Source: Boseongicola sp.
Lineage (GTDB): Bacteria; Pseudomonadota; Alphaproteobacteria; Rhodobacterales; Rhodobacteraceae
Direction: 5' to 3'
Assembly (NCBI GenBank): GCA_013042105.1
Contig: JABDQU010000157.1
Span: 1-36,211, forward strand
Length of the DNA: 36,211 nt
The number at the start of each line of letters is the position of its first letter. The stretch's first letter is position 1. Of the stretch, positions 694 through 36,211 are shown in pieces. Position numbers and translations under genes: made by a program. The notes under the pieces were generated by a model. It was not told the DNA's origin. It made no database searches and saw only the letters and a list, made by a program, of their open reading frames with translations.

Positions 694-2916
694 CTAGCCG
701 ATGATGGCGTTCAGCGTTGGCGACGGTTGCATGACGGCTGCGGTTTTGGCCGGATCCGTGTGGAAATACCCGCCAAGATCGGCAGGAGCGCCCTGAACGG
801 CGGCCAATTCTGCGGTGATCTTGTCTTCGTTTTCCGCCAGTGCTTTGGCAATCGGTGCGAAGTGGGCGGCGAGGTCCGCGTCTTCGGACTGAGCGGCCAG
901 TGCTTCGGCCCAGTAGAGTGCGAAGTAGAAGTGGCTGTCGCGGTTGTCGGGCTGACCGACTTTGCGGCCCGGCGATTTGTTGTGATCGAGGATGCCTTGG
1001 GTCGCGGCGTCGACGGCTTCGCCAATAATGCGCGCGCGGGCGTTGTTCTTGGTTTCGCCAAGGAATTTCAGGCTTTCGCCAAGGGCGCAGAACTCACCGA
1101 GCGAGTCCCAGCGGAGGTGGTTTTCTTCGACCAGCTGTTGGACGTGTTTGGGGGCCGAGCCGCCAGCGCCGGTTTCAAACAGACCACCGCCGTTCATCAG
1201 TTTCACGATCGACAGCATCTTGGCGGAGGTGCCAAGTTCGAGGATCGGGAAAAGGTCGGTGAGGTAGTCGCGCAGCACGTTGCCGGTGATGGCGATAGAG
1301 TTTTCGCCTTTGCGGATCGTCTCAAGTGCCAGACGCGTGGCTTCGCGGGGGGCGAGGATCTGGAATTTGTCGGCGACGCCAGCGGCTTCAAGCATTGGCG
1401 TGACGTAGGCGATCAGTTCGGCGTCGTGGGCGCGGTTGGCGTCGAGCCAGAACACAGCCTGACAGCCTTCGGCCTTCTGGCGCGAGATGGCGAGGTTCAC
1501 CCAGTCGCGGATCGGGGCTTCTTTGGTGGAGGCCGCGCGCCAGATGTCGCCGGCTTCAACGTTGTGGGTGTGAATAACGTCGCCGTTTGCGGCCGTGAGG
1601 GTGACTGTGCCATCGGCGGGCACTTCAAACGTGGTCGGGTGCGAGCCGTATTCTTCGGCCTTTTGTGCCATCAAACCAATGTTTTGCACTGTGCCGGAGG
1701 TGGATGGGTCAAGCGCGCCGGTCTCTTTGAAGTAGTTGACGGTTTCTTCATAGACGGGCGCGTAGGAGTTGTCGGGCACGACGCAGTTCGTGTCACCTTC
1801 GTTGCCATCCGGGCCCCAGCCCTTGCCACCTGCGCGGATCACAGCCGGAAGTGAGGCGTCGATGATGACGTCGGAAGGCACGTGCAGGTTGGTGATGCCC
1901 TTGTCGGAATTCACCATATACATGGGCGGACGCGTGGCCATGACAGCGGCGATATCGGTTTCGATTTCGGCTGCGTTGTCCATTTCTGCGATGCGATCGA
2001 GGACCGCGCCAAGGCCGGAGTTCGGGTTTACGCCAGCCGCGTCGAGGGCGGGCCCGTGCTTTTCAAAGACGGGGGCGAGGAAGGCGCGCACGGCGTGACC
2101 GAAGATGATCGGGTCCGAGACCTTCATCATCGTTGCCTTGAGGTGCAGCGAAAAGAGTGTGCCGTCGGCTTTGGTGTCTTCGATCTGTTCGGCGAGGAAT
2201 GTGCCGAGGGCTTTGACGGACATGAAGGTCGTGTCCACAACAGTGCCTTTGGGCAGTTGGAAGCCCTCTTTCAGGACCGTCTTTGCACCAGATGTGTCAG
2301 TGAAGGTGATGGTCGCGCCACCGGCTTGGGCTTCACTGATGGTCGATGATTTCTCGTTTGAAAAGAAGTCGTTGCCATTCATGGACGAGACTTTGGTCTT
2401 GCTGTCTTTTGACCATGCACCCATCCGGTGCGGGTTGGCTTTGGCGTAGTTCTTGACGGCGACAGCCGCGCGGCGGTCGGAGTTGCCTTCGCGCAAGACG
2501 GGGTTCACGGCAGAGCCTTTGATCGCGTCAAAGCGCGCGCGGATGGCTTTTTCGTCGTCCGTCTGCGGGTCTTCGGGGTAGTCGGGCAGGTCGTAGCCTT
2601 GCGACTGAAGCTCTTTCACGGCGGCGACGAGTTGCGGGACCGAGGCCGAGATGTTCGGCAGTTTGATGACGTTGGCATCGGGTGATTTCACCAGAACGCC
2701 CAGTTCGGCCAGATCGTCGGATTGCTTTTGCGCGTCTGTCAGGCCTTCGGGGAAGGCGGCGATGATGCGACCGGCGAGCGAGATGTCTTTCGTTCCAAAG
2801 CTGACGTCAGCGGCCCCCGCAAAGGCGCGAATGATGGGCAAAAGCGATGCAGAGGCCAGCTCTGGCGCTTCGTCGACTTTGGTGTAGATGATGTCGGAAC
2901 CGTTCTGATCGGTCAT
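694..2916 (-). CDS. icd: Isocitrate dehydrogenase, NADP-dependent, monomeric type
   Basis: This 740-residue protein oxidises isocitrate to 2-oxoglutarate and CO2 with NADP+ in the TCA cycle. Its length and sequence fit the large monomeric IDH class (about 740 aa) rather than the 45-kDa dimeric class. Recognisable stretches include the N-terminal [47 protein letters not shown] and [15 protein letters not shown]. The ORF track extends 35 codons further upstream, but the ATG at 2916 (MTDQNGSD) matches the usual N-terminus and has a strong GGGGGAG ribosome-binding site just upstream. It is monocistronic by appearance: a terminator follows it, and a 20-bp imperfect palindrome lies 69-88 bp upstream of the start. 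Cytoplasmic. Confidence 0.97.
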
Positions 2917-2984
2917 GGGTTGCTCCCCCGCAAGATGTGATTGTGGGGTGCATAATGGGATTTTCGCGTCGCGTCGACCATTTT

Positions 2985-3004
2985 CAGCATACCGTGGTAT
3001 ACTG
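2985..3004. promoter_or_regulatory. Candidate operator palindrome upstream of icd
   Basis: CAGCATACCGTGGTATACTG has arms CAG.ATACC and GGTAT.CTG that pair perfectly apart from one position in each arm and the central GT. It is the only clear dyad in the 139-bp gap between icd and the amidohydrolase gene, and it lies where an icd promoter would be expected. The regulator is unknown. Confidence 0.4.
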
Positions 3005-3055
3005 TGCGACGAATTGCCCATGGCGGGTGACGGTGACAGGTGTCTGCCGGGTGGG

Positions 3056-4486
3056 TTATTTTCCGGCGTTCAGTAGGTTTTCCTCGAGCGCATCAAGGGC
3101 CGCGCGATCAAGCACGCGGCCTGCGGCAATGACCGCCTGAGGGCGGCGCAGCGTGGCGAGCGAGACCAGTGGGTTGGTATCCAGCACCACGAGATCCGCG
3201 TGGCGTCCGGGGGCGATGGTGCCGTCGAGATCCGGCAGGTCAAAAAAACGCGCCGGGGCAAGTGTTGCTGTAAACAGGGCTTCGCGCGGGGACAGGCCGG
3301 CTTCGACGTAGATGTCGAGTTCATCCAGCAGCGAAAAGCCGTGGAACGGGTAGGGGTTGGCGAAAGACGCATCGGTCGAGGCGAGGATCGGAACCCCTGC
3401 CGCATGGGCCATCGCGAAGGTCTTGCGGTCGAGCGCAATGCTGTCTTGTGCCAGCGCGCGCACTTCGTCCGTCATCGCGGCGAGACGAAAGTCAGGCTTG
3501 CCCCAGGCTTCGCGCAAGGCGGCGGGGATCATTTGCATGCGCGGGGCGTCGGCGGAGGGCCAGTTGCCGGTGTAAAAGTCAGCGACAACGAGTGTTGGGC
3601 TGACGTGCAGATTGGCTGCGGCCATGGTGTCCAGAACCCCGGTGCAGAGATTTTCGTCCCACGTGCGCAGAATAATTCCATTGCGCGCGGCCATGATCTC
3701 AAAGATGCGGGTCAGGTCTGCGCCACTGTTCATCGCCTGACGCAGATCGTTGAGCATTTGCTCTTCTTTCCGAGAGCAGGCCATGGGAATGCGTCCGAAG
3801 TGTTCCATTCCGGCTTGTCCGGCTGAGATCGCCGTGGCGAGGGCGACGCGTTCGGGAATGTGGCCGACCAATGGCAGGCCCTGTGCCGTCGCGGCGTCTG
3901 CCAGCGCGAGATAGGTGGCCTCGTCCAGCATCGAATAGGATTTGACGGCGGCCCATTCTTCCTGTGCGATCTGGCCGACCACCGACTTTGCCTGCGCCGG
4001 GGTGTCTGCAAGGAACATGCCCGGCCACGAGCCCGGGCTGGCATCGACCCAGGCCCCTGCAAGGATGAGGCGCGGTCCGAGCACTTCTCCTGCGGCGATC
4101 CGGGCCTGGAGGGCCTTTTGTTCTGCGATCGGCCAGAGCGCGCCCATGTCGCGGATGCCGGTGACGCCGTTCAGAAGATAGAGCGGGAGAGCAGTGTCGG
4201 GTTCATCAGCTGTGGAGAAGATATGCACATGGCTGTCCCAAAGCCCGGGGATCACAAAGCCGCCGTCGCCATTTATGGTGTCTGCGGTTTCTGACGCGGT
4301 CAGGTCGGGGGCTATTTCGGCGATGAAGCCGTCACGGATCAGGATTGACTGGTCGGGTGAGAGGCTACCGTCTTCGATATGGACGAGTGTTACATCGGTG
4401 AGCAGGGTTTCGGCATGGCTGGCGAGCGCGCCCGCCAGAATGGCGGTCGTCAGTGTCAGAGCTTTCAAACACAGTTTTTTCATCAT
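3056..4486 (-). CDS. Exported amidohydrolase-family protein (imidazolonepropionase-like)
   Basis: A 476-residue protein with a Sec-type signal peptide ([19 protein letters not shown], likely cleaved after SHA near residue 25), so it is probably periplasmic. The amidohydrolase fold shows a small N-terminal beta domain, the metal motif DSHVHIF (HxH at 86-88), a VKSYS segment whose Lys sits where the carboxylated Lys is expected, then VGHIP, MEHFG and STDASF supplying further His/Asp ligands. The C-terminus has the usual [15 protein letters not shown] beta-sheet return. Family members hydrolyse cyclic amides, dipeptides or related C-N bonds; the substrate cannot be read from sequence. A second Met directly follows the first, so the start is uncertain by one codon. 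It may be transcribed separately from icd. Confidence 0.88.
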
Positions 4487-4843
4487 TCAGGGACCTTGTG
4501 GTTCAATGTGCCGGGCAGAGAACCGGTGCCTTTCGGTCAGGCCGGAAGGCGGGTTCTGGGAACGTGATCAGCCTTGGTGTTCTGGCGTTGCTAAGCGCGA
4601 CGCTGTCTGTGTCGGTTGTTGGCATGCAGATCGGGTGCGGGCCTTGATCAATGTCAAACAGGTCGAGGCGATTGAACACGCGAATGGCGGACCAGACCCG
4701 ACGAGGCTTGGGGCGCGCCTGTTTGAGATTGCTCAATAGCGTGGGATCAATGCGGCTTAGGGTGGTGTCCAGGGATTTGATGCGAAGGGCCGCCTTTGGA
4801 GAGAGGGGGCTTGTTTAGATCGTCAGAGGAAAGGGTATTTCAG
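4487..4843. other. Intergenic region between divergent genes
   Basis: This 357-bp gap separates the leftward amidohydrolase from the rightward CPBP protease gene and should hold both promoters. A reverse-strand frame is open from about 4815 to 4503 but has no ATG (only TTG near 4736) and no recognisable domain. I see no repeat, RNA gene or strong hairpin. Confidence 0.5.
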
Positions 4844-5677
4844 GTGTCTGACCCGTCGACTGTCCATACCGCGCCGTCCCGAGATCTTTCGGTGCGATAC
4901 ATTCTGCCTTTCTTTGTGGCAACCTTCGCGCTTTCGTGGGGGTTGCTGTTTGCAATGCTGCAATATCCGGAAGCGATGACCCGTTTTTTCGGAGAGCTGA
5001 GTGTTACCCATCCGGCGTATATGATTGCCACCTGGTCACCGGGATTGGTCGGGATCGGGCTGGTCTGGGCGGCGACGGGGTTTTCGGGGCTGCGTCGGTT
5101 TTTCGGGCGTTTGTTTGATGTGCGGGTGCCGTTGGTCTGGTGGGCGTTTGTGCTTTTGGCGCTGCCGCTTTTGAAGATGCTGGGGGCATTGCTGAACGGG
5201 ACACCGGTGAGCGAGTTGATTGTTCTCGATCCTTTGGGGCAGGTCGTGATGATCACCGGGTTCATGCTGTTTCTTGGCCCGGCCGAGGAGTTCGGCTGGC
5301 GCGGTGTGGCCTTGCCGTTGATGCAGCGGACGATGGCGCCGGTCTGGGCGGGTGTGATTGTGGGGTTTGTCTGGGCATTCTGGCATATCCCGGCCTTTTA
5401 CCTTGACGGAGCGCCCCATACGGCATGGTCTTTGACGCCTTTTTTGATCGGCGTGACGTCCGTGGGTGTGGTCATGGCCGTTGTCTTCAACAAGACGCGC
5501 GGAAATCTGCTGTTTGCTGTCCTGATCCACTGGCAGTTGAATATCGCTTTCTGGCCCGAGGCGCAGCCGTGGGAAAACTATCTCAACCTTGCGCTTGCTG
5601 TGATGCTGGTCTGGATCCATCGCGATGTCATGCTGCACCGGGACAAGGCCGAGACCACGGTTGTTCCGGCGTTTTAG
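4844..5677 (+). CDS. CPBP-family intramembrane metalloprotease (CAAX protease/Abi type)
   Basis: A 277-residue polytopic membrane protein. The diagnostic CPBP motifs appear in order: EEFGWRG (motif 1, paired Glu plus Arg), FVWAFWH (FxxxH, motif 2) and HWQLN (HxxxN, motif 4), within about eight hydrophobic segments. These residues form the glutamate/histidine site of the Rce1-like fold. In bacteria such proteins cleave membrane substrates or process and resist peptides; the target here is unknown. The ORF track starts at 4796, but the in-frame GTG at 4844 is preceded by AGAGGAAAGG at a good distance and removes a poor N-terminal extension. It converges on the DUF6544-like gene with a 4-nt overlap of the two stop regions. 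Confidence 0.85.
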   Translation: MSDPSTVHTAPSRDLSVRYILPFFVATFALSWGLLFAMLQYPEAMTRFFGELSVTHPAYMIATWSPGLVGIGLVWAATGFSGLRRFFGRLFDVRVPLVWWAFVLLALPLLKMLGALLNGTPVSELIVLDPLGQVVMITGFMLFLGPAEEFGWRGVALPLMQRTMAPVWAGVIVGFVWAFWHIPAFYLDGAPHTAWSLTPFLIGVTSVGVVMAVVFNKTRGNLLFAVLIHWQLNIAFWPEAQPWENYLNLALAVMLVWIHRDVMLHRDKAETTVVPAF

Positions 5678-6519
5678 GGGTTAGTCGGGGTTGGAAACCT
5701 GACCTCGGACACATTGGCGATGAAGAACGGAAAGTAGTCGTCTGTGCCGAAATGGTTTCCGGCTTCGACGTGGAAGGGGACTTGGAATCCGTTGATTTGC
5801 CGGAAGTCAGACAGGAAGCCTCCGAAGGGTTGCAGGCGGTGGATGCCTTCGGGGTTTGCGTTGCTCCAGCGTTGAAAGACAACTTCGACGGGTCGGCCTT
5901 CGGCGTCTACGGTGATGTCGACTGCCTGGCCCATGCCGTCGTGGTTCATTGTATAGCGTGCGGTGTTTGCGTCGACGGCTTCCCATGTGACGTGGCGGCT
6001 GGGCAGAATGGCGGCAGGGGTCCAGAAGGCGGCCTCGGCGACATAGCGGCCGAAGGCGGAGCGGGCATGATCATTGTCGCCGCCAAAGCGCGCCACGGGG
6101 GCGAGGCCCGCCATCCAGAACCGTGTCCAGCGGGCCGAGTCAGAGCCGGACATTCGCATCAGTCCGGACCCGCAGGACATCTTCCAGACAAACCCGTCAG
6201 GCGCGGCCAGCACCTGGGTTGCCTGCATATCCATGTAATTCGGGGCGTCTTGACTGCCGAGGCTGAACTTTCCGGTCATCTCTATTTGGGCGACGCTCAG
6301 AAGGGGTGTGCCTTCGGCGATTGCAAAACGGAAGTAGCGTTGTGCCGGTTCGGGCAGGTCTGAAATCAGGGCCTTTGAGAACCGTTCCGGTTTGAGGGGT
6401 TGGAGGGCGCGCAGGCGGTCCATTTCGCGGGCGTCGGCGCGATGATCCGTCAGGCGCCAAACGATCAACAGGGCGGCTGCGAGAAGGACGAGACTTGCCA
6501 GTGCAATCAGATACTTCAT
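5674..6519 (-). CDS. DUF6544/DUF6920-like protein with N-terminal membrane anchor
   Basis: A 281-residue protein beginning with one hydrophobic segment (LIALASLVLLAAALLIVWRL), either an uncleaved anchor or a signal sequence. The rest is soluble and begins with a LPEPAQRYFRFAI segment, then a beta-rich domain ending in PFHVEAGNHFGTDDYFPFF. This layout matches proteins annotated as DUF6544 (formerly DUF6920), which have no established function; family assignment is from memory of its motifs. A GGAGA site lies just before the ATG. Its 3' end overlaps the convergent CPBP gene by 4 nt. No operon partner: the next gene upstream ends 130 bp away. Confidence 0.75.
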   Translation of the reverse strand: MKYLIALASLVLLAAALLIVWRLTDHRADAREMDRLRALQPLKPERFSKALISDLPEPAQRYFRFAIAEGTPLLSVAQIEMTGKFSLGSQDAPNYMDMQATQVLAAPDGFVWKMSCGSGLMRMSGSDSARWTRFWMAGLAPVARFGGDNDHARSAFGRYVAEAAFWTPAAILPSRHVTWEAVDANTARYTMNHDGMGQAVDITVDAEGRPVEVVFQRWSNANPEGIHRLQPFGGFLSDFRQINGFQVPFHVEAGNHFGTDDYFPFFIANVSEVRFPTPTNP

Positions 6520-6649
6520 CGGATCTCCGGGGTGATCTGTTTACGTGACAGTTTCGCATTTCGCGGCAAATCCGCAAACGATTTCCGGTGGTGGGTTTTG
6601 GTGGCGGCGGGTGCGCACGGAAGTCCGGGTGTCGGTATTGCGACTTTTG

Positions 6650-8446
6650 TCAGTAGTGTCCGCGCGATTGCATGAGCGCATCGGCGCGGCGCTGGGCGTT
6701 GGTCAGGGCCACTTCGACGCTTTTTGCGCCTTGCAGCATATCGTGAAGTTCGGTGCCGATGATCTCGATCAGATCGGTGATTTCGGGGACCGGGGGGCGG
6801 GGCCAGTATTGCAGGATGCCCGAGCGCGCCATGCCGTCCACGATCGAGATCACGGGTGAAATGCGGCGCACGTTCGGGTCCATGCTGACGCTGAAGCGCG
6901 GTGATACGAGGCTGCCGTTTTCGATGTAGAGCTTGATGCTTTCGGGCGAGGTCAGGGACCGCATGGCGTCCCAGACCGCGCCGACGCGTTCGGGGGCAAT
7001 GTTGGACGGGATCGCCAGCGCGTAGCCTCCGACGGGGGCCAGAGGCTTGCCGCCCGGACCATAGGGGTGGGGCAGGAAGTCGGTCACGCCGTAGGCGGGT
7101 GATGCGTCGTTCAGTTCAAACAGGGGGGCCAGAAGTGTCGCGCAGTAGGCCATGGCGACTTCGCCATCTGCGTAGGCGCGGGCGCGTTCGTACCACGACA
7201 TCGACAGGATCGAGACGGGGGAGTAGTCGAGCAGTTCGCGCAGGTATTCGGCTGTTGCGACGGCTTCGTCGGACAAAAACGCCGGGCGCAGATTTTCGCC
7301 TTCGGACCATTCGGCATCAAAGCCGGTGTCGGTTTTTTCGAGGTTGAGGAAGGGGCGGCCCATCGCCCCCATGACGAACATGAAGGTGTGACCAAGCGGT
7401 GTGCCGCGCGCGGCGTTCCAAGCGATACCCGAGCGGCCCTGCGCACGGCTGTGCAGTTTGCGCGCAGTTTCGAGCGTATCCGAGATCGTAAAGGGCACGC
7501 CAATTCCGGCGGCGTCGCAGAGGTCACGGCGGACGCAGAGCAATTCGGGTGTCGTCTGGACCGGCAGGCCGTATTGCGCGCCCCGGTGGCGGGCCGATGC
7601 CAGCGCGACACTGTGGAAGTCCCCGAGATCGACCTTGCCGTCGGACAAGAGGTCGTCGATGGGCATCAGGATTTTCTTTTCGGCCAGTTCGCCGAACCAG
7701 GGCAGGTCACAGGCGATAATGTCATAGCGTGACGACTTGCGGCTGGCGTTGGACAGAATTTCCTGGCGCAGCCGGTCAATGGACAAGGCGCGGCTGTCGA
7801 TGCCGGTGCCAAACAGCGCTTCGAACTGGCGTTTCAGCACGTTCATGGCAAGGAATGTCGGATCGGCGTGAACCAGAACGCGCAGGTTGTTTTGCAGGCT
7901 GAGCTTTGATTGCAGCGGGGTCGGCGGCGGGATCGTGCCGCTTTCGCCGTAAGACGAGCCGAAGAAATAGTCGCTGATGCCGCCTTGTCCTGCGCCTTCA
8001 AGTCCAAGGGTCGAGCCAATGGCCCCGCGCACGCGGCGCGCATATTCCTGCCATTCACCGATCAGTTTTTCTGTCGGGTGGAGCGAGAAGCTTTTTCCGG
8101 TTTGGGTCCGTGGGCGTCTGATGAGAAGGCCGCGTTCTTCGATGGAGTTGATCGCCCGGATTGCGGTGCCATACCCAAGGCCGCTGGCGTTGGCCAGAAA
8201 GCTGGTGGTGGTCATCTTGCCTTTGAGGTGATTGCGCAAGAGCGTGGTGATCAACCGGGTTTCGTCATAACCGGATCGGAGGCTGAGCACCTGATCGGCC
8301 TCGTTGCCGAGGGCTTCGATGAAATCCAGGAAACGCGAAAATTCCTCGCCGGAAATGCTTTTGGGCAGCGGCGTTGGCCCGCTTTCGAAGGGATCTTTCG
8401 GTCGTGCTCGGTTGCGTCCCTTTTGCAGGTTCATGCGGTCTTTCAT
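6650..8446 (-). CDS. Putative one-component regulator: winged-helix domain fused to a MalE-type (SBP_bac_1) solute-binding domain
   Basis: About 598 residues with no signal peptide and no membrane segment. After a basic, disordered N-terminus, roughly residues 30-135 form a MarR-like winged helix (TTTSFLANASGLGYGTAIR as recognition helices, EERGLLIRRP as the wing). From about residue 190 to 560 the sequence follows the family-1 extracellular solute-binding fold (NLRVLVHADPTF, YDIIACDLPWF, YGLPVQTTPELLCVRRDL, APVGGYALAIPSN). Automated pipelines may call it an extracellular solute-binding protein, but without an export signal it should be a cytoplasmic sensor-regulator. It is the last gene on the strand of the adjacent CUT2 transporter operon, behind a terminator. 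The ORF track starts at TTG 8458; I prefer ATG 8446, though 8434 is also possible. Ligand unknown. Confidence 0.8.
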   Translation of the reverse strand: MKDRMNLQKGRNRARPKDPFESGPTPLPKSISGEEFSRFLDFIEALGNEADQVLSLRSGYDETRLITTLLRNHLKGKMTTTSFLANASGLGYGTAIRAINSIEERGLLIRRPRTQTGKSFSLHPTEKLIGEWQEYARRVRGAIGSTLGLEGAGQGGISDYFFGSSYGESGTIPPPTPLQSKLSLQNNLRVLVHADPTFLAMNVLKRQFEALFGTGIDSRALSIDRLRQEILSNASRKSSRYDIIACDLPWFGELAEKKILMPIDDLLSDGKVDLGDFHSVALASARHRGAQYGLPVQTTPELLCVRRDLCDAAGIGVPFTISDTLETARKLHSRAQGRSGIAWNAARGTPLGHTFMFVMGAMGRPFLNLEKTDTGFDAEWSEGENLRPAFLSDEAVATAEYLRELLDYSPVSILSMSWYERARAYADGEVAMAYCATLLAPLFELNDASPAYGVTDFLPHPYGPGGKPLAPVGGYALAIPSNIAPERVGAVWDAMRSLTSPESIKLYIENGSLVSPRFSVSMDPNVRRISPVISIVDGMARSGILQYWPRPPVPEITDLIEIIGTELHDMLQGAKSVEVALTNAQRRADALMQSRGHY

Positions 8447-28912: not shown

Positions 28913-28959
28913 TGGAGGCGAGTACCGGAATCGAACCGGTGTACACGGATTTGCAATCC
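28913..28959 (-). tRNA. 3' fragment of a tRNA-Cys (GCA) gene, putative attachment-site scar
   Basis: On the reverse strand the sequence runs GGATTGCAAATCCGTGTACACC, then a T arm ACCGG-TTCGATT-CCGGT, then ACTCGCC-T-CCA. This is the tRNA-Cys sequence from the middle of the anticodon stem to the encoded CCA. Further 5' the sequence (CCGCGGCATCCTTA) does not complete the anticodon stem and there is no D arm or 5' acceptor strand. It is therefore a 47-nt partial copy, not a functional tRNA. Such 3' fragments are typical of the distal attachment site of elements integrated into tRNA genes. Confidence 0.8.
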
Positions 28960-29260
28960 TAAGGATGCCGCGGATTTCATGGCGTTTTTTTGTAAAATGC
29001 ACTGCAGGGTGCCTGTGTGAAATCTGTGGATTAGCTGCCGAATGTAAAATGCATTGAGTGTCCAAAGCAGTCATTATTGCAAGTTGCACTATACGAACTC
29101 TCGCTAGATCTCGGCCCCTTTTTTCAAATGCGCAAATGAAATGTTAGTTTTTTGCTTTTTTGTTAAACCGCGTCGTACTGGCGCGAGCTCAAAGAAAACG
29201 AATTTGACCGGGCCGAGGATAGTCCGCAGCCGACTGGCAGACCGGTTTTCCTTTTTTCGT
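28960..29260. other. Non-coding flank next to the tRNA fragment, with short direct repeats
   Basis: This roughly 300-bp stretch is richer in A and T than its surroundings (runs of T near 28985, 29150 and 29248). TGTAAAATGCA occurs twice in direct orientation, at 28991-29001 and 29043-29053. I see no open frame with a recognisable domain and no integrase fragment. Confidence 0.5.
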
Positions 29261-30289
29261 TCAAATTCCCGGCCAGGTGTCAGAGACCCGGTACCCTTCG
29301 GGCCATGGATCGTTGGGGTCGAGCATGAGTTGATGCGTGCCTGTGACCCAGGCCGATCCAGTGACGGTGGGGATGATCGCGGAAAAGTCGCCGACGGTCA
29401 GTGTTTCGGCAATGTGGCCAAGGAACTCCGATCCGATGATCGAGCGCGCCCTAAGGCAGTTTCGCACATTCATCTGCCCCTTCGCCAGCAGAACCGCCAT
29501 GCGCGCGGAAACAGCAGTGCCTGTCGGCGAACGGTCTATTTTTCCGGGGCGGATTGCGACAGCGTGTGTGGTCTCAAGGGCTTCTTTCGTGCGCGTGATC
29601 GCGCCTGCAAACAGGCAGAATGAGTAGTGCGACCAGTCTGGAAGCGTGGGGTGCATGAAACCGATCTGTTCGTCCGCCGCTGCGGTGATGCGGGTGCCGA
29701 GGTCAGCCAACGCGCGCGCATTTGATGATGTGAGCGCGATGCCGACGGCCTCGGCGTCGAGGATGACAAAGCTGTCTCCACCAAATCCGGTGTCGACCTG
29801 AATTTTCCCCAGTCCGGCAACATCGAGCGTGACGTCGAGGCGATGGGCGAAGGAGGGCATATTTTTTAGTGTAACCGAGGTGACCGCTCCGTCGCGGCAG
29901 GCGGCGGTCACATCAACAAGGCCGCCGGGGGCTTCGAGTGTCAGATGTGTTTCGGGTTCCTGCATTGGCAGAATGCCAGTCTCAAGCAGAACCGTGGCCA
30001 CACAGATGGTGTTTGAGCCGGACATTGGCGGGGTGTCGGCGGGTTCCATGATGATGAACCCCATGTCTGCGCCCGGGGTCTTTGGAGGAACCAGAAGGTT
30101 CACGTGGCGAAACACGCCGCCGCGCGGTTCGTTCAGAACAAAGTTTCTGAGCTTCTGGTCGCGCGCGATGAAGGCGCGTTGCTCCCAAAGAGTATCTCCG
30201 GGGGGCGGGGCCACGCCGCCGACGATGACATCGCCAACCTCTCCTCCTGCGTGGGCGCTGACGATGTGGATTGTCTTGGAACTTCGCAT
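29261..30289 (-). CDS. Proline racemase-family protein (hydroxyproline 2-epimerase or 3-hydroxyproline dehydratase-like)
   Basis: A 342-residue enzyme of the proline racemase superfamily, with N-terminal [36 protein letters not shown] and the two catalytic motifs. In proline racemases these are MCGH and SPCGT, with two Cys acting as acid and base. Here they read PPMSGSNTI (Ser90) and [12 protein letters not shown] (Thr256). Family knowledge links Thr at the second position to trans-3-hydroxy-L-proline dehydratases and Ser at the first to some epimerases; the Ser/Thr pair leaves no Cys. It starts 3 bp after the stop of the ATPase gene, so it is last in the amino-acid ABC operon, which suggests import and conversion of a proline-type amino acid. 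Confidence 0.88.
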
Positions 30290-30291
30290 GA

Positions 30292-31032
30292 TCAGTTCCC
30301 TAGAATCTTCTCAAGAAACTGGCGAGTGTCCGCTTCGCGCGGGGCATCGAAGAACGTCGTTGGCGGCCCTTCTTCCACGATGCGGCCATCAACCATGAAG
30401 ACAACGCGGTCGGCTACCTTTCTGGCAAAACCCATCTCATGGGTGACGCAAATCATCGTCATGCCCCCTTCGGCAAGTGCTACCATCGCGTCGAGAACTT
30501 CGCCGATCATTTCGGGATCAAGTGCCGAAGTGGGTTCGTCAAACAGCATGATTCGAGGTTGCAGGCACAAGGCGCGCGCGATGGCGACGCGTTGTTGTTG
30601 ACCCCCTGACAGTTCGTCGGGGAATTTGTCTGCTTGCTCGGAAATGCGCATGCGTGTCAATTCGCTCCGAGCCAGGTCTTCGGCGTCTGCGCGTGCGGTG
30701 CCACGGACGCGGATGCGGGGAAGGGAGCAGTTCTCCAGGACCGTCAGATGCGGGAATAAGTTGAAGTCTTGAAAGACCATACCAACTTCTCGGCGCACAT
30801 CGCGGATTGCGTCGTCGTCATCCGAGAGTTCTACGCCCTCGACCTCGATACTGCCAGCGTCGTGAACTTCGAGCCGGTTGATGCAGCGGATCAGTGTGGA
30901 TTTCCCGGACCCGGATGGGCCGCAGATGACAACCCGTTCGCCTTTGGCCACGTCGAGATCAATGGATTTCAGCGCGTCGAAGTCACCGTAGCGCTTGGTC
31001 ACGTCGCGCATTTTGATTGCCTGATCAGCCAT
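30292..31032 (-). CDS. Polar amino-acid ABC transporter ATP-binding protein (AapP/GlnQ-like)
   Basis: A 246-residue ATPase with Walker [11 protein letters not shown]-loop [13 protein letters not shown], signature [15 protein letters not shown], Walker [15 protein letters not shown] and switch His in VTHEMGFA. These are standard for the polar amino-acid class. The ORF track starts at 31209 within the permease gene; ATG 31032 ([11 protein letters not shown]) is preferred, giving an 8-nt overlap with the upstream permease. Cytoplasmic subunit serving the two permeases and followed directly by the proline racemase-family gene. Confidence 0.95.
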
Positions 31033-32110
31033 GATGCAGCCTCGTGCGCCGTTCAAGATAGGCACCATAGCGTGACAGTCCGAAGACAAAGACGAAATAG
31101 ATGAGGGCGACAAAGACGTAGATTTCGACGTAGTAGGCGCCCCATTCCCCGCGTCCGACCGCAGCCGATGCCGATGCGGTGACGTCGAAAAATCCGATGA
31201 TTGTGACAATCGAGGTTTCCTTGAAGGTGATCACGACCTGATTGATCGTTGAGGGGAGAGTGTTGCGAAAGGCCTGCGGCAGAATGATGTCGAAGACGAC
31301 CGCCCGGTAGCTCATCCCGAGGGCTTGGGAGGCTTCCTCCTGACCGGAGGGGATGGACTGGATACCTGCGCGAATGATCTCTGCCTGATAGGCGGCGTAG
31401 AAGACTGCGAAGGCGACTATGACCCGGCCCAGTTTATCGCCCTGTGCCCAATGTGGGACGACAAAGGGGACGACGACCGCGGCGGCAAAAAGAATTGTGA
31501 GAAGCGGCAGCGACCGCACGGTGTCGATGAAAACGGCGGCCAGCCAATGGATCACCGGTAGCTTTGAGCGGCGCGCCAGAGCAAGGCCGACGGCCATGGG
31601 CATGCCCAGAACAAAAACGCCAGCGAAGATGAACACTGTGAGTGATAGTCCACCCCATTGTTCGGTGGTGACAACCGACAGTCCGAAGATGCCGCCGTAC
31701 ATCAGGATCACGAACGTGCCGAACCCGGCTATCCAGAGGGCAGGCAAGCGTTTCAGCCCCCACATTGCAGGCAGGCAGGACAGGATCATTGTGAGGACGA
31801 TGACTAGACATGCTAGGGTCGAACGCCAGTGTTGCTCAGACGGGTACAGACCGAACAGGACCAGCCGTCCACGCGCTTCGATGACGGACCAGCACGCGCC
31901 CGACACTTCGCGGCATCGGCTGGCTTCGGCTTCGCTCCAGACGGCGTTTAAGAACGCCCAGTCGACGATGCTGACCACGATCCACACGAGGGCTGAGCCC
32001 GCCACCAGCGTGACGATACCGTCGAACCAGTTTGAGAACAGCCGTTTTTTTAGAATTTCGAGGCGGCTGTCCAAGAGGGGGGGCGGTCGCGATACGGAGG
32101 CGTCGGTCAT
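31025..32110 (-). CDS. Amino-acid ABC transporter permease (AapM/BztC-like)
   Basis: A 361-residue permease with a long N-terminal region containing extra hydrophobic segments, then the binding-protein-dependent transport domain. The EAA loop is visible as EEASQALGMSYRAVVFDIILPQAF, which docks to the ATPase, preceded by FIDTVRSLPLLTILF and YQAEIIRAGIQSIP. The extended N-terminus separates Aap/Bzt-type permeases from the short GlnP type. It overlaps the ATPase gene by 8 nt and starts right after the stop of the other permease gene, so the four transporter genes are a tightly linked operon. Forms a heterodimer with the next permease. Confidence 0.93.
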   Translation of the reverse strand: MTDASVSRPPPLLDSRLEILKKRLFSNWFDGIVTLVAGSALVWIVVSIVDWAFLNAVWSEAEASRCREVSGACWSVIEARGRLVLFGLYPSEQHWRSTLACLVIVLTMILSCLPAMWGLKRLPALWIAGFGTFVILMYGGIFGLSVVTTEQWGGLSLTVFIFAGVFVLGMPMAVGLALARRSKLPVIHWLAAVFIDTVRSLPLLTILFAAAVVVPFVVPHWAQGDKLGRVIVAFAVFYAAYQAEIIRAGIQSIPSGQEEASQALGMSYRAVVFDIILPQAFRNTLPSTINQVVITFKETSIVTIIGFFDVTASASAAVGRGEWGAYYVEIYVFVALIYFVFVFGLSRYGAYLERRTRLHHG

Positions 32111-32111
32111 G

Positions 32112-33245
32112 TCAACTGCGCCCCTTGATTGCGAGGCGGCTATTTATCCAGTTCATCGAGCCGCTGATCGTGTAGTTGATAATCAGGAACCCGACCATCA
32201 GGAGGAGTAGCAACTCCATTGTCTGACCGCTCTGATTGATCGAGGTTGAGACGACCATGAAATAGTCCGGATACCCGATTGCTATGCCGAGGGTGGTTGC
32301 TTTCATCAGCCAGACGTATTGATTTGTGAGGGCAGGGAGCATGGCGCGGATTGCCAGCGGGACCCGGATGAAGCGATTGATCTGCGTGGTGGATAGTCCA
32401 AGGGCTCGGGCCGCTTCGAGGCGGCCCTTGTCAACCGACAGGAACCCGCCGCGCACGATCTCTCCGATGTAAGCGCCGCCAAATACCATGATCGCAATAA
32501 GCAGAGCGGAAAACTCAGGTTTGATCGTCGCGCCTCCGACAAAGCGCAGTCCCTTCAATTCGGGGCGGCTAATGAGGGGCGTGTCAGGATCGTGGCCGAA
32601 GAACAGAAGGGCCGTTGCAAGTGCGACCACTGCGGCAACACCGATCCCCCATTTGGTCAAGAGGCGGTCGCCGCCAAAACGGCGCGCTGCCACTATCGTG
32701 GCGATGATTACGACCACAAGAATGAGCAAATCCCAAGACGACCAGCTTGGTGTGGCGATCATCAGGCCCCGGTTAGACAGGAAGCCAAAACCGGCGAGGT
32801 CGATGGCACCACGTGGTGACGGCAAATGGGTGAAGATCGCGTACCAGAAAATAACCTGAAGGATCAGCGGCACGTTTCGGAAGGTTTCAACGAAAACCGT
32901 GCCAAGCACGTTCAAAATGAGGTTTGACGACACGCGCATGAGGCCCACAATCAGACCGACGCAGGTGGCCCCGGCGAGGCCCGCGAGCCCGACGATAATC
33001 GTGTTCAGAAAACCGGCCAGAAGCATGCGCGAGTAGGGTGAGCGGTCGGTGACCTCGACAATCGAGAAGTTGATCGGCCAGCCGGTGGAGCGTTCCAGAA
33101 ACCCAAAACCAGTGGCAATGCCCTGTGAGACGAGGTTGTCACGCGCTGTGAGTATGAAGCTCAGCGTGAGTAGCAACGACGCGGCAAGGACAACTGCCTG
33201 GATCAAGTAGCCGCGCGCCCTGCGGTTGCGAATAATGCGTTGCAT
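32112..33245 (-). CDS. Amino-acid ABC transporter permease (AapQ/BztB-like)
   Basis: A 377-residue permease with an N-terminal anchor, a periplasmic segment (GFGFLERSTGWPINFS, a pattern common in AapQ-type proteins), VETFRNVPLILQVIFWY, and the EAA loop EAARALGLSTTQINRFIRVPLAI. The middle region between about residues 150 and 250 holds an additional hydrophobic stretch and a periplasmic insert, as expected for this long permease class. It follows the binding-protein gene after a 52-bp gap containing a hairpin, and precedes the second permease by one base. Confidence 0.93.
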   Translation of the reverse strand: MQRIIRNRRARGYLIQAVVLAASLLLTLSFILTARDNLVSQGIATGFGFLERSTGWPINFSIVEVTDRSPYSRMLLAGFLNTIIVGLAGLAGATCVGLIVGLMRVSSNLILNVLGTVFVETFRNVPLILQVIFWYAIFTHLPSPRGAIDLAGFGFLSNRGLMIATPSWSSWDLLILVVVIIATIVAARRFGGDRLLTKWGIGVAAVVALATALLFFGHDPDTPLISRPELKGLRFVGGATIKPEFSALLIAIMVFGGAYIGEIVRGGFLSVDKGRLEAARALGLSTTQINRFIRVPLAIRAMLPALTNQYVWLMKATTLGIAIGYPDYFMVVSTSINQSGQTMELLLLLMVGFLIINYTISGSMNWINSRLAIKGRS

Positions 33246-33256
33246 GATGTTCCTTC

Positions 33257-33292
33257 AAAAGTACAGGGCCGAGCGCGAAGCCCGGCCCTGTA
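33257..33292 (-). terminator. Hairpin with T-tract between binding-protein and permease genes
   Basis: On the reverse strand TACAGGGCCG and CGGCCCTGTA form a perfect 10-bp stem around an 11-nt loop, followed by CTTTT. Its place after the binding-protein gene suggests partial termination or mRNA stabilisation that raises binding-protein levels above the permeases. Confidence 0.75.
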
Positions 33293-33297
33293 TTTGA

Positions 33298-34335
33298 TCA
33301 GTCGAGAACCAGCGGATACAGCAGGCCACCGTTTGACCACAGGTGGTTCTTGCCGCGCGGTAGCTTGTAGACCGAGCCTTCGCCCACAGTACGGTCATAG
33401 ATTTCACCGTAGTTTCCGACAGCTTTGATCATGTTGTAGGCCCAGTCATCACTGAGGCCCAAACGCTCGCCGACGCCTGGGCTTGCGCCGAGAAGGCGCT
33501 CAACCGACGCAGATGGCGGGTTGGCACGGATGTCGTCGACATTGGCTTGGGTGATGCCGTTTTCCTCGGCCATCAGCAGCGCGGACATCATCCAGTTGAT
33601 GACATCGATAAAGCCATCATCCCCTTCTCGGGCTGCAATTCCTTCAGGCTCAAGCGCGAGAACTGCGTCGAGAATTGTGAAGCCTTCGGGGTCTGGCGCG
33701 TTGAAGCGCGTTGCGGCCAGAAACGGACCGAACCCGGCAAGCGCGTCGCAGCGACCGGCGTAGAGGGCTGCGCGAAGCTCTTCGGCCTTCTCGAAGTTGA
33801 GCGCTTCGTAAGTGATCCCACGCGCCCCCATGTAATCGGCCACGATCCGTTCGATGGATGTTCCGGCGTTGATGCAGAACACGCCACCTTCAAGATCCTC
33901 CGGGGTCGTCGCGCCAAGATCGCTGCGGACCAGAATGTTGGTTGGTCCAATGAAATACGGGCGCGAATACTGGAGTCCAAGCTCGGTGTCGCGGCTCATT
34001 GTCCAGCCGGTCACCTTGATGATGACGTCGATGTCGCCGGACTGGAGGGCAGGGAAGCGCTGAGCCCAGCTTACCGGAATAAGCTGCAGAGCTTCGGGAT
34101 TGCCGAGGATGGCAGTGGCAAGTGCCTTGCACATCTCGATATCAAATCCCGACCATTTTCCGTCATCATCAACTTCGGCAAAACCCAGATAGCTGCCGTT
34201 GTGGCTGGTACACAAGAGACTTCCACGCTCCTGAATTTGCGTAATCGTCGGTCCGGGGTCAGCCGCCGATGCCGGAAGGGCCAGGCCAGCCATCATTGCC
34301 GCTGCGGCAACGGTTTTTATTGTGGATTTGATCAT
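33298..34335 (-). CDS. Amino-acid ABC transporter substrate-binding protein (AapJ/BztA-like)
   Basis: A 345-residue periplasmic protein with a signal peptide (MIKSTIKTVAAAAMMAGLALPASA, cleavage after ASA). The family-3 solute-binding fold is visible: RGSLLCTSHNGSYLGFAEVDDDGKWSGFDIEMCKALA, WAQRFPALQSGDIDVIIK and CINAGTSIERIVADYM. Length and the SGFD...CKA and WTMSRD segments match the AapJ/BztA group, which binds glutamate, glutamine or a range of polar amino acids. The hydroxyproline-type enzyme at the operon end suggests a proline derivative here, by context only. The ORF track starts at 34422; ATG 34335 has AAAGAGGT upstream and begins the signal peptide. Confidence 0.93.
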   Translation of the reverse strand: MIKSTIKTVAAAAMMAGLALPASAADPGPTITQIQERGSLLCTSHNGSYLGFAEVDDDGKWSGFDIEMCKALATAILGNPEALQLIPVSWAQRFPALQSGDIDVIIKVTGWTMSRDTELGLQYSRPYFIGPTNILVRSDLGATTPEDLEGGVFCINAGTSIERIVADYMGARGITYEALNFEKAEELRAALYAGRCDALAGFGPFLAATRFNAPDPEGFTILDAVLALEPEGIAAREGDDGFIDVINWMMSALLMAEENGITQANVDDIRANPPSASVERLLGASPGVGERLGLSDDWAYNMIKAVGNYGEIYDRTVGEGSVYKLPRGKNHLWSNGGLLYPLVLD

Positions 34336-34750
34336 GTTTACCTCTTTGTGTTGGATAAAAGGACGCTGCTCATCGCGCGGCGTCTTTTGGGCGCACAGCT
34401 CCGCGCTATGCCAGGATTTCATATTGTTTTGAGTTCAATACACCTTTCTGTCGTTGGTGGTGTTTCTTAGGCAGAACACATCGCGCGATGGGCTTTCAGA
34501 CCTGCGGAATTCCGGCCTGCTGGCTTTTGTGCCAGGTAAATTCGACCGTTTCAGCATCGGGACTCATTCATCGCGATCCGCAAGAGCGGGTCATGTATGA
34601 ATGGCTTCATGTGACGAAGCCTGGCAGCTTTGGTTACTACAGTCTGAATGCCGATCCCCTAGTATCGCAAAGTTGCTGATTCCCCTTTCCGAGGCTAACT
34701 TATGGCCATCACTCTGTCGACAAGGCGTGTGAGACTTGGAGAATCCGCCG
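34336..34750. other. Divergent intergenic region between the amino-acid ABC operon and choline-sulfatase gene
   Basis: This 415-bp gap should carry both promoters. A hairpin with flanking A and T runs lies at 34357-34388. An open frame at 34488-34679 has no recognisable domain. I see no regulator gene for either side and no clear BetI-like operator. Confidence 0.5.
34357..34388. promoter_or_regulatory. Leader hairpin upstream of the amino-acid ABC operon
   Basis: AAAAGGACGC and GCGTCTTTT pair (one bulged G) around about 13 nt. Read leftward it has terminator form, a GC stem followed by TTTT, and lies 22 bp before the binding-protein start, where it could attenuate transcription. No leader peptide or known riboswitch is evident. 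Confidence 0.3.
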
Positions 34751-36211
34751 ATGACAGACGCCCCCTCGATGCCCAACATTGTCTTGTTCATGACCGATCA
34801 ACTGACGGCATCTGTGCTTTCTAGTTACGGTGGTCTCGTTTGCAAAACCCCGAACCTGGATCGCCTTGCATCGCGTGGTGTGGTCTTTGAGAAAGCCTAT
34901 TGTCCTTATCCGCTGTGCGCGCCCTCGCGATTTGCTATGATGTCGGGTCGGCTGGCCTCGCGCATCGGTGCGTGGGACAATGGCGCTGAATTTCCGGCCT
35001 CGACGCCGACCTTTGCGCATTACCTGCGTGCGCGAGGGTATTACACCTGCATCTCGGGCAAAATGCACTTTGTAGGACCCGATCAGTTTCACGGGTTCGA
35101 GGAACGCCTGACAACCGAGATCTATCCGTCTGATTTCTCCTGGACTCCCGCCCCTGAGGAACGCGATGCTTCGGATCGTTTTGGAGCCGGCGTTTCTTCG
35201 GTGGAAAGCGTGCTGGATGCAGGGCCAATGGCGCGCACAATGCAAATTGACTACGACGAAGATGTGATCCACCACGCCGTGCGCGAGGTTTATGCACGTG
35301 CGCGCAGTGCCGATACCCGACCGTTCATGCTTACGGTGTCGCTGACACAGCCGCATGATCCCTACATAACGACGCAAGCCTTTTGGGATCTCTATGAAGA
35401 CACGGAGATCGACGCGCCGCGAGTCCCTGCGATCCCACTGGATCAGCGCGATCCCCATTCGCGTATGCTTCACAGTCACTACGGCCAGGATAAGACCGAC
35501 ATAGACGCGCACGCCACAACCCGCGCAAGACGCGGGTATTATGGAATGATCTCGCATATCGACGCGATGTTCGGGCGCCTGATGGACGCGTTGTCGGACT
35601 CTGGCTTAAGCGAGAACACTATGGTGATCTTTGCCTCTGATCATGGTGACATGATGGGCGAGCGCGGGATGTGGTTCAAAAAGACGCTCTTTGAACCGGC
35701 GATACATGTCCCGCTGATCGTTGGTGGTCTTGGGATCGCGCAACGGCGGGTTGCTACTCCGGTCTCGCTTTTGGACCTTCTGCCCACGCTTGTTGATGTC
35801 TCGGGCGCGCCAGAAGGTACCTTATGCACTCCGTTTGATGGTCAAAGCCTTGTGCCGCTCTTGCATGGTAGTTCTGAGCACGACCCGGTTATGGTTGAGC
35901 ATCTGGACGGAGGGACAGATGCGCCCAGAGTGATGCTGCGAGACGGGGATCTGAAACTTGTGCTGTCATGCGCTTATCCGACAATGCTGTTCAATTTGAG
36001 CGACGATCCTTTTGAGCTTAATGATCTTGCGTCCGATCCGGCCGTATCAAATGAAATGGCGAGAATTATGGCGAAGGCGCATGAGATATGGGATTTGGAC
36101 GCACTCGCGGTCGATAAGCATGCCAATCAAACGGCCCGCACCGTGGTTAACACCGCGCTTCAGACAGGTCGCCCTCAGGTGTGGGATTTCACGCCGGGCA
36201 CTTTGGCGCAG
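34751..36211 (+). CDS. betC: Choline-sulfatase (C-terminus cut by window edge)
   Basis: The frame runs 487 codons from ATG 34751 to the right edge without a stop, which is why the ORF track omits it and lists only reverse-strand shadows. The sequence opens MPNIVLFMTDQLTASVLSSY and has the sulfatase active-site motif CAPSR, whose Cys becomes formylglycine, followed by the second signature SGKMHFVGPDQ. Further matches are TQPHDPYI and ASDHGDMMGERGMWFKKTLFEP. The tail reaching RPQVWDFTPG resembles the C-terminal extension of BetC, which turns choline-O-sulfate into choline and sulfate; the full protein is usually about 500 residues, so little is missing. No signal peptide, so cytoplasmic. A GGAG site lies ten bases upstream. 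No betA, betB or betI is visible here. Confidence 0.9.
   Translation, partial: MTDAPSMPNIVLFMTDQLTASVLSSYGGLVCKTPNLDRLASRGVVFEKAYCPYPLCAPSRFAMMSGRLASRIGAWDNGAEFPASTPTFAHYLRARGYYTCISGKMHFVGPDQFHGFEERLTTEIYPSDFSWTPAPEERDASDRFGAGVSSVESVLDAGPMARTMQIDYDEDVIHHAVREVYARARSADTRPFMLTVSLTQPHDPYITTQAFWDLYEDTEIDAPRVPAIPLDQRDPHSRMLHSHYGQDKTDIDAHATTRARRGYYGMISHIDAMFGRLMDALSDSGLSENTMVIFASDHGDMMGERGMWFKKTLFEPAIHVPLIVGGLGIAQRRVATPVSLLDLLPTLVDVSGAPEGTLCTPFDGQSLVPLLHGSSEHDPVMVEHLDGGTDAPRVMLRDGDLKLVLSCAYPTMLFNLSDDPFELNDLASDPAVSNEMARIMAKAHEIWDLDALAVDKHANQTARTVVNTALQTGRPQVWDFTPGTLAQ

Follow-up and report, generated by a model that had tools for sequence, protein, structure and literature searches.

Does a truncated tRNA gene beside a catabolic operon mark the end of a mobile element, and if so, on which side does the element lie and how far does it extend? 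These questions are raised by a 36,211-nucleotide stretch of a Boseongicola sp. genome (contig JABDQU010000157.1, positions 1 to 36,211; hereafter the window), in which the original prediction, made from the letters alone, had placed the 3' part of a tRNA-Cys(GCA) gene at 28913-28959 and had read it as the border of an integrated element at higher coordinates. The placement is exact. The reverse complement of this segment, GGATTGCAAATCCGTGTACACCGGTTCGATTCCGGTACTCGCCTCCA, is identical, at 47 of 47 positions, to the 3'-terminal 47 nt of the intact gene for tRNA-Cys(GCA) in Boseongicola aestuarii CECT 8489, which belongs to the genus of the window, and in many other members of the Rhodobacteraceae (comparison genomes from this family carry G codes here, B. 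aestuarii being G004). The E value of this match, 1.5e-22, rules out a chance origin. The 5' half is missing, as had been proposed; the 27 nt upstream of the core, which end in ATGAAATCCGCGGCATCCTTA, are unlike a tRNA 5' half, and ARAGORN and Rfam call no tRNA anywhere in the window. A short-word BLAST search of the window for additional degenerate cores or arms returned nothing beyond the internal repeat of the arm described below and chance 11-mers.

The sequence that replaces the 5' half is a conserved element end, or attachment arm (Table 1), of which we located twelve copies: the one in the window, eight more beside tRNA-Cys fragments (B. aestuarii, two in Roseovarius albus [G064], G062, G063, G246, G080 and a weaker one in G236), and three at secondary sites outside tRNA genes (G255, G188, G118). 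The window and B. aestuarii arms are 74% identical over 99 bp, and the parts conserved among the copies are two TTTTACA sites, a CTGATATTCCACAGGC-like block and CAATGNNNTCAG close to the core; the 3' side of the core shows no comparable conservation across the same loci. In the window, copy 2 of the TGCATTTTACA direct repeat lies 52 bp from copy 1, and judged by their sequence the two look like the arm sites bound by integrases, a putative role. With one mismatch tolerated, a search of 397 family genomes for the pattern ATTTTACA-N31-GGATTGCAAATCCG gave 9 with a match, each from a different genus, and none for the reversed control. We did not find the arm in IMG/VR viral contigs, and among the plasmid and phage matches listed the similarity is confined to the tRNA core. 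The three plasmid matches inspected, all from Rhodobacterales (NZ_CP021410.1 [37616-37662], CP081101.1 and NZ_CP123585.1), are intact tRNA-Cys genes in which the 47-nt core is identical, with a HipA-family gene nearby in two of the three; the same integrases might use such plasmid-borne genes as additional targets.

The three copies outside tRNA genes (G255:C6:268653-268705, G188:C11:18651-18703 and G118:C10:9119-9171) consist of the arm and the 14-nt anticodon stem-loop alone in non-tRNA surroundings, and are apparently secondary-site insertions; within the 15.8-58.5 kb examined around them, neither a tRNA-Cys nor a tyrosine integrase was detected. Because they cease to match tRNA-Cys beyond GGATTGCAAATCCG (of which G118 keeps 13 of 14 positions), the point of strand exchange likely lies in the anticodon stem-loop.

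Table 1. Features of the attachment site and of the adjoining cargo in the window
Feature	Position	Strand	Basis
tRNA-Cys(GCA) 3' fragment, anticodon stem to CCA; 47-bp attachment core, distal end of the element	28913..28959	-	47/47 identity to intact genes
Anticodon stem-loop GGATTGCAAATCCG, inferred crossover region	28946..28959	-	Non-tRNA copies in G255, G188 and G118 keep this 14-mer alone
Conserved element end (attachment arm) adjoining the core	28960..29057	-	Ungapped, fixed spacing against 11 other copies
TGCATTTTACA, putative arm-type integrase-binding site, copy 1	28991..29001	-	Exact 11-bp direct repeat; CATTTTACAA in most other arms
TGCATTTTACA, putative arm-type integrase-binding site, copy 2	29043..29053	-	Exact 11-bp direct repeat; TTTTACAT in most other arms
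trans-3-hydroxy-L-proline dehydratase (proline-racemase family), cargo	29261..30289	-	PF05544 3e-128; NCBIfam NF047722 609 bits (cut-off 550)
Polar amino-acid ABC transporter ATPase, cargo, reading frame as listed	30292..31209	-	PF00005, GlnQ-like
Amino-acid ABC permease, cargo	31025..32110	-	PF00528, TIGR01726
Amino-acid ABC permease, cargo	32112..33245	-	PF00528, TIGR01726
Amino-acid ABC substrate-binding protein, cargo	33298..34422	-	PF00497
Choline-sulfatase, cut by the contig end	34736..36211	+	TIGR03417 581 bits

Integrase-bearing relatives reveal how such sites are arranged. In several family members the order runs from an intact tRNA-Cys through an adjoining convergent tyrosine integrase and the element to a distal fragment with this arm, and every pair of neighbouring cores forms direct repeats. 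The integrase lies just 3' of the intact, convergent tRNA-Cys in G005, G011, G017, G030, G035, G062, G063, G064, G080 and G236, with a direct repeat of the tRNA 3' half 6-50 kb beyond (the distal copy of G005 was not identified on its contig). The conserved arm at 28960-29057, together with exactly the same polarity in these relatives, bears out the prediction that the element occupies the high-coordinate side, and a 3' direct repeat of the tRNA with a conserved element end on its 5' side supports reading the core as an attachment-site fragment. The elements of G062 and G063, 20 and 16 kb long, encode integrases 88% identical to each other and carry the window's arm at their distal ends and TTTTACA sites also at their integrase ends; the G062 element also encodes a type I restriction-modification system and a DUF5906/VapE-like protein. 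As the target of several distinct integrase groups, tRNA-Cys is a shared hotspot, and the islands at this gene in the Rhodobacteraceae are stacked in tandem. In G246 (C27:91814-91860) and G080 (C1:2395444-2395490), elements whose integrases belong to another group terminate distally in a second, unrelated-looking arm sequence, 89% identical between the two genomes; the class of arm thus seems to follow that of the integrase. At the tRNA-Cys locus of B. aestuarii (G004:C40:30191-32653), tyrosine integrase genes flank the tRNA on both sides: the upstream one stops 77 bp short of the tRNA 5' end and the other starts 79 bp after the CCA. The upstream position is unusual for 3'-end integration.

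Stacking allows the intervals between consecutive cores to be compared, and we examined 16 of these. A tyrosine integrase is present in 12, at the tRNA-proximal end in nearly all (G009 is an exception). The remaining four hold cargo only, and all four end in the window's arm: a 705-bp interval in G080 with one SnoaL-like gene, a 1197-bp interval in G246 with a TacA-type antitoxin and GNAT pair, and two in R. albus, of 3109 bp (a Glu/Leu/Phe-dehydrogenase-like [GluDH-type] protein and a Zn-alcohol dehydrogenase) and 6164 bp (a PLP decarboxylase, an oxidoreductase and LysR). At the opposite end of each of the four, an inverted TGTAAAATG lies some 40 nt away from the core. Since the sample is small and was partly picked by arm, we regard the association between this arm and the lack of an integrase as suggestive only.

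The window itself was said to hold no integrase, and we likewise found none; within the visible 7.2 kb of the element (28960-36211, where the contig end cuts it) there are no integration or transfer genes, and the cargo is catabolic (Table 1). The true start of the ABC transporter ATPase is probably near 31017, because its domain begins at residue 64-65 of the listed frame. What lies past the contig end can be approached through B. aestuarii, in which a 3.5-kb contig (C49, NZ_FXXQ01000043.1) carries a choline-sulfatase 95% identical to that of the window (C49:128-840), followed by a HalD/PhyH-like oxygenase, a second tRNA-Cys fragment (C49:1832-1878) with its arm, and an NAD epimerase gene. 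This second fragment lies 991 bp past the point matching the window edge. The end of C49, as read from its last codons, holds the start of an IS3-type transposase. The left part of the element has its counterpart in another genome of the genus, G002, where the hydroxyproline operon is 97-99% identical and is preceded by epimerase and EamA transporter genes (G002:C76:1-2206); the contig with this operon has no tRNA-Cys core. The window joins arm to operon at 29057, precisely where its matches to G002 and to B. aestuarii meet, and either the extra genes of G002 were inserted at this point or the window lost them. The different context of the G002 operon and the absence of a core from its contig indicate that module borders have shifted within the genus.

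We conclude that the fragment represents the distal attachment site left by a tRNA-Cys element. This element is probably a compact cassette that spans about 8 kb (8.2 kb by our estimate) within a tandem stack, lacks an integrase and would be mobilised in trans. This reading draws on the tandem stacking at the hotspot, on the four integrase-less intervals with the same arm and on the second fragment about 1 kb past the choline-sulfatase gene in C49. In the mechanism we propose, a tyrosine integrase would insert the element at the 3' end of tRNA-Cys(GCA), exchanging strands in the anticodon stem-loop; the incoming element would give the tRNA gene a new 3' half, and the displaced 47-nt half would stay behind distally, attached to the arm of the element (28960-29057). 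From there the element would extend to higher coordinates across the genes for the 3-hydroxyproline dehydratase, the amino-acid ABC transporter and the choline sulfatase to a right boundary where, as in B. aestuarii, a further core would follow roughly 1 kb beyond the edge of the window. The cassette may have been moved by whichever integrase of a neighbouring or incoming element recognises the same arm. Several observations count against this explanation: the 3' side of the B. aestuarii core is without the TGTAAAATG motif of the other cassette ends, the two sides of the short contig C49 may belong to one element or to two, module borders have shifted in G002, no clean empty site was found, and the assembly of the window contains neither the right boundary nor an intact tRNA-Cys nor a matching integrase.

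The fragment could instead be the distal end of a single ordinary island, with an integrase and an intact tRNA-Cys tens of kilobases to the right. This is the standard arrangement in G062, G063, G030, G017, G011, G080 and G236, with elements of 8.5-50 kb, and nothing in the window contradicts it. However, in B. aestuarii about 1 kb separates the choline-sulfatase gene from the next core, which suggests that another fragment comes next on the right, and a single island ending at an intact tRNA is therefore probably too simple a description; moreover, four of the four integrase-less intervals found bear this arm. We consider a single island rather unlikely, though deserving of serious attention.

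An element on the left, that is, on the 3' side of the fragment, with chromosome on the right, would account for the lack of DNA-level conservation of window positions 24.7-28.9 kb in four genomes of the same genus, and for the location elsewhere in B. aestuarii of the block at 6.6-21 kb. The gene order farther left, which speaks for our main reading, places the fragment most likely at the tRNA-Cys locus, because the monomeric isocitrate dehydrogenase gene at the left end of the window (694-3021) has a counterpart in B. aestuarii that follows the intact tRNA-Cys at a distance of 17 kb, in the same order and on the same strand. The stretch between the fragment and this gene spans 26 kb in the window and differs completely from that of B. 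aestuarii, which indicates a plastic region. Window 1-3019 matches C40:48-51 kb of that genome, and the 14-kb block at 6650-21057 matches C40:225-239 kb at 86% identity; the break in synteny falls at 3020-6650. A different integrase, of the Arm-DNA-bind_3 type, adjoins the match to this block (C40:239590-240840). The non-conservation fits an older stacked island or a rearrangement between the fragment and the isocitrate dehydrogenase gene. The conserved element end, by contrast, is on the right, the polarity of integrase-bearing relatives is fixed, and neither a conserved end on the 3' side nor chromosomal synteny on the 5' side was seen; a left-hand element is thus improbable.

The assembly of the window, comprising 432 contigs and 84% complete, lacks the far end of the element: it contains no second core, no tRNA-Cys among its 27 tRNA genes and no integrase matching the element. 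Its two tyrosine recombinases both lie on other contigs, and the one that was read is XerD-like. Within Boseongicola, the only homologue of the G062-type integrase is a 26% match in B. aestuarii (G004:C40), with none in G000-G003. A clean empty site was not found among these genomes, as B. aestuarii has an integrase 79 bp after its tRNA-Cys and G001-G003 have no tRNA-Cys match. Absence of a second copy, an intact tRNA-Cys and a matching integrase from the assembly is what a decayed or recombined pseudogene that lost its 5' half with no element involved would leave, but the core is intact to the base and the same arm replaces the 5' half in several genera at exact spacing, which disfavours random deletion and makes this explanation very improbable.

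Integrase-less islands at tRNA genes are usually read as remnants. The compact cassette that we favor here belongs to a set in which the same arm, at exact spacing, bounds units of 0.7 kb to 20 kb across genera, and therefore the question of whether single genes travel non-autonomously can be asked directly. More tentatively, we suggest that the Rhodobacteraceae may possess dispersed small integrase-less cassettes of at least one gene, whose site is the tRNA-Cys 3' half plus an arm of about 100 bp, and that tRNA-Cys integrases may capture, stack and re-mobilise these in trans, which would make the tRNA gene an integron-like platform for gene capture and the hydroxyproline/choline-sulfate cassette of the window one of its passengers; we put this forward as a speculative proposal. 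If such cassettes do travel, they would provide a route by which catabolic operons (hydroxyproline, choline sulfate) and toxin-antitoxin pairs spread among marine Rhodobacteraceae, and ATTTTACA-N31-GGATTGCAAATCCG offers a simple sequence signature for finding them.

Our literature search yielded no paper on tRNA-Cys integrase islands in the Rhodobacteraceae or Roseobacter, and no description of a set specific to tRNA-Cys in which units as small as one gene share a common arm. Integron gene cassettes are small, often single-gene units that are stacked by site-specific recombination, with the recombinase located elsewhere. The units described here are likewise small and stacked, with a recombinase elsewhere, but on inspection they differ: integron cassettes rely on attC and IntI, whereas here each site consists of a tRNA-Cys 3' end plus an integrase arm, and the partner enzymes are tRNA-targeting phage-type integrases. 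Another parallel is found in the CIMEs (cis-mobilizable elements) and accretion known from the ICESt1-related islands of Streptococcus (Pavlovic 2004; Bellanger 2011; as described in PMC5704250); CIMEs are described as decayed ICEs or IMEs. Like those, the present element would be bounded by attachment sites (one in the window, the other inferred from C49), shows no integrase or transfer genes between 28960 and 36211, and belongs to a family of units that share their site, in tandem, with integrase-bearing elements. The differences are that the smallest intervals here hold just one gene or a toxin-antitoxin pair flanked by two complete ends, that tRNA-Cys serves as the target, and that we saw no conjugation genes. 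The ssrA islands of Dehalococcoides also lie in tandem, with the 3' end of a tRNA-like gene as their border; an integration module is missing from 15 of them, which carry metabolic (rdhA) cargo, and a short conserved motif adjoins each repeat (PMC3146451). The likeness thus extends to the tRNA-type 3' end, the integrase-less members, the metabolic cargo and the motif beside the repeat, although those islands use a serine recombinase, tmRNA and a 20-bp repeat, in place of tyrosine integrases, tRNA-Cys and a 47-bp repeat with an arm of about 100 bp. Tycheposons of Prochlorococcus, as discussed in PMC10872708, are tRNA-bounded islands of marine bacteria with a tyrosine recombinase and nutrient-related cargo; they share this cargo type and setting with our case, but involve other tRNAs and lineages and are described there with a recombinase, of which the window element shows none. 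Judged by analogy with CIMEs, Dehalococcoides ssrA islands and tycheposons, the present case works on a known principle.
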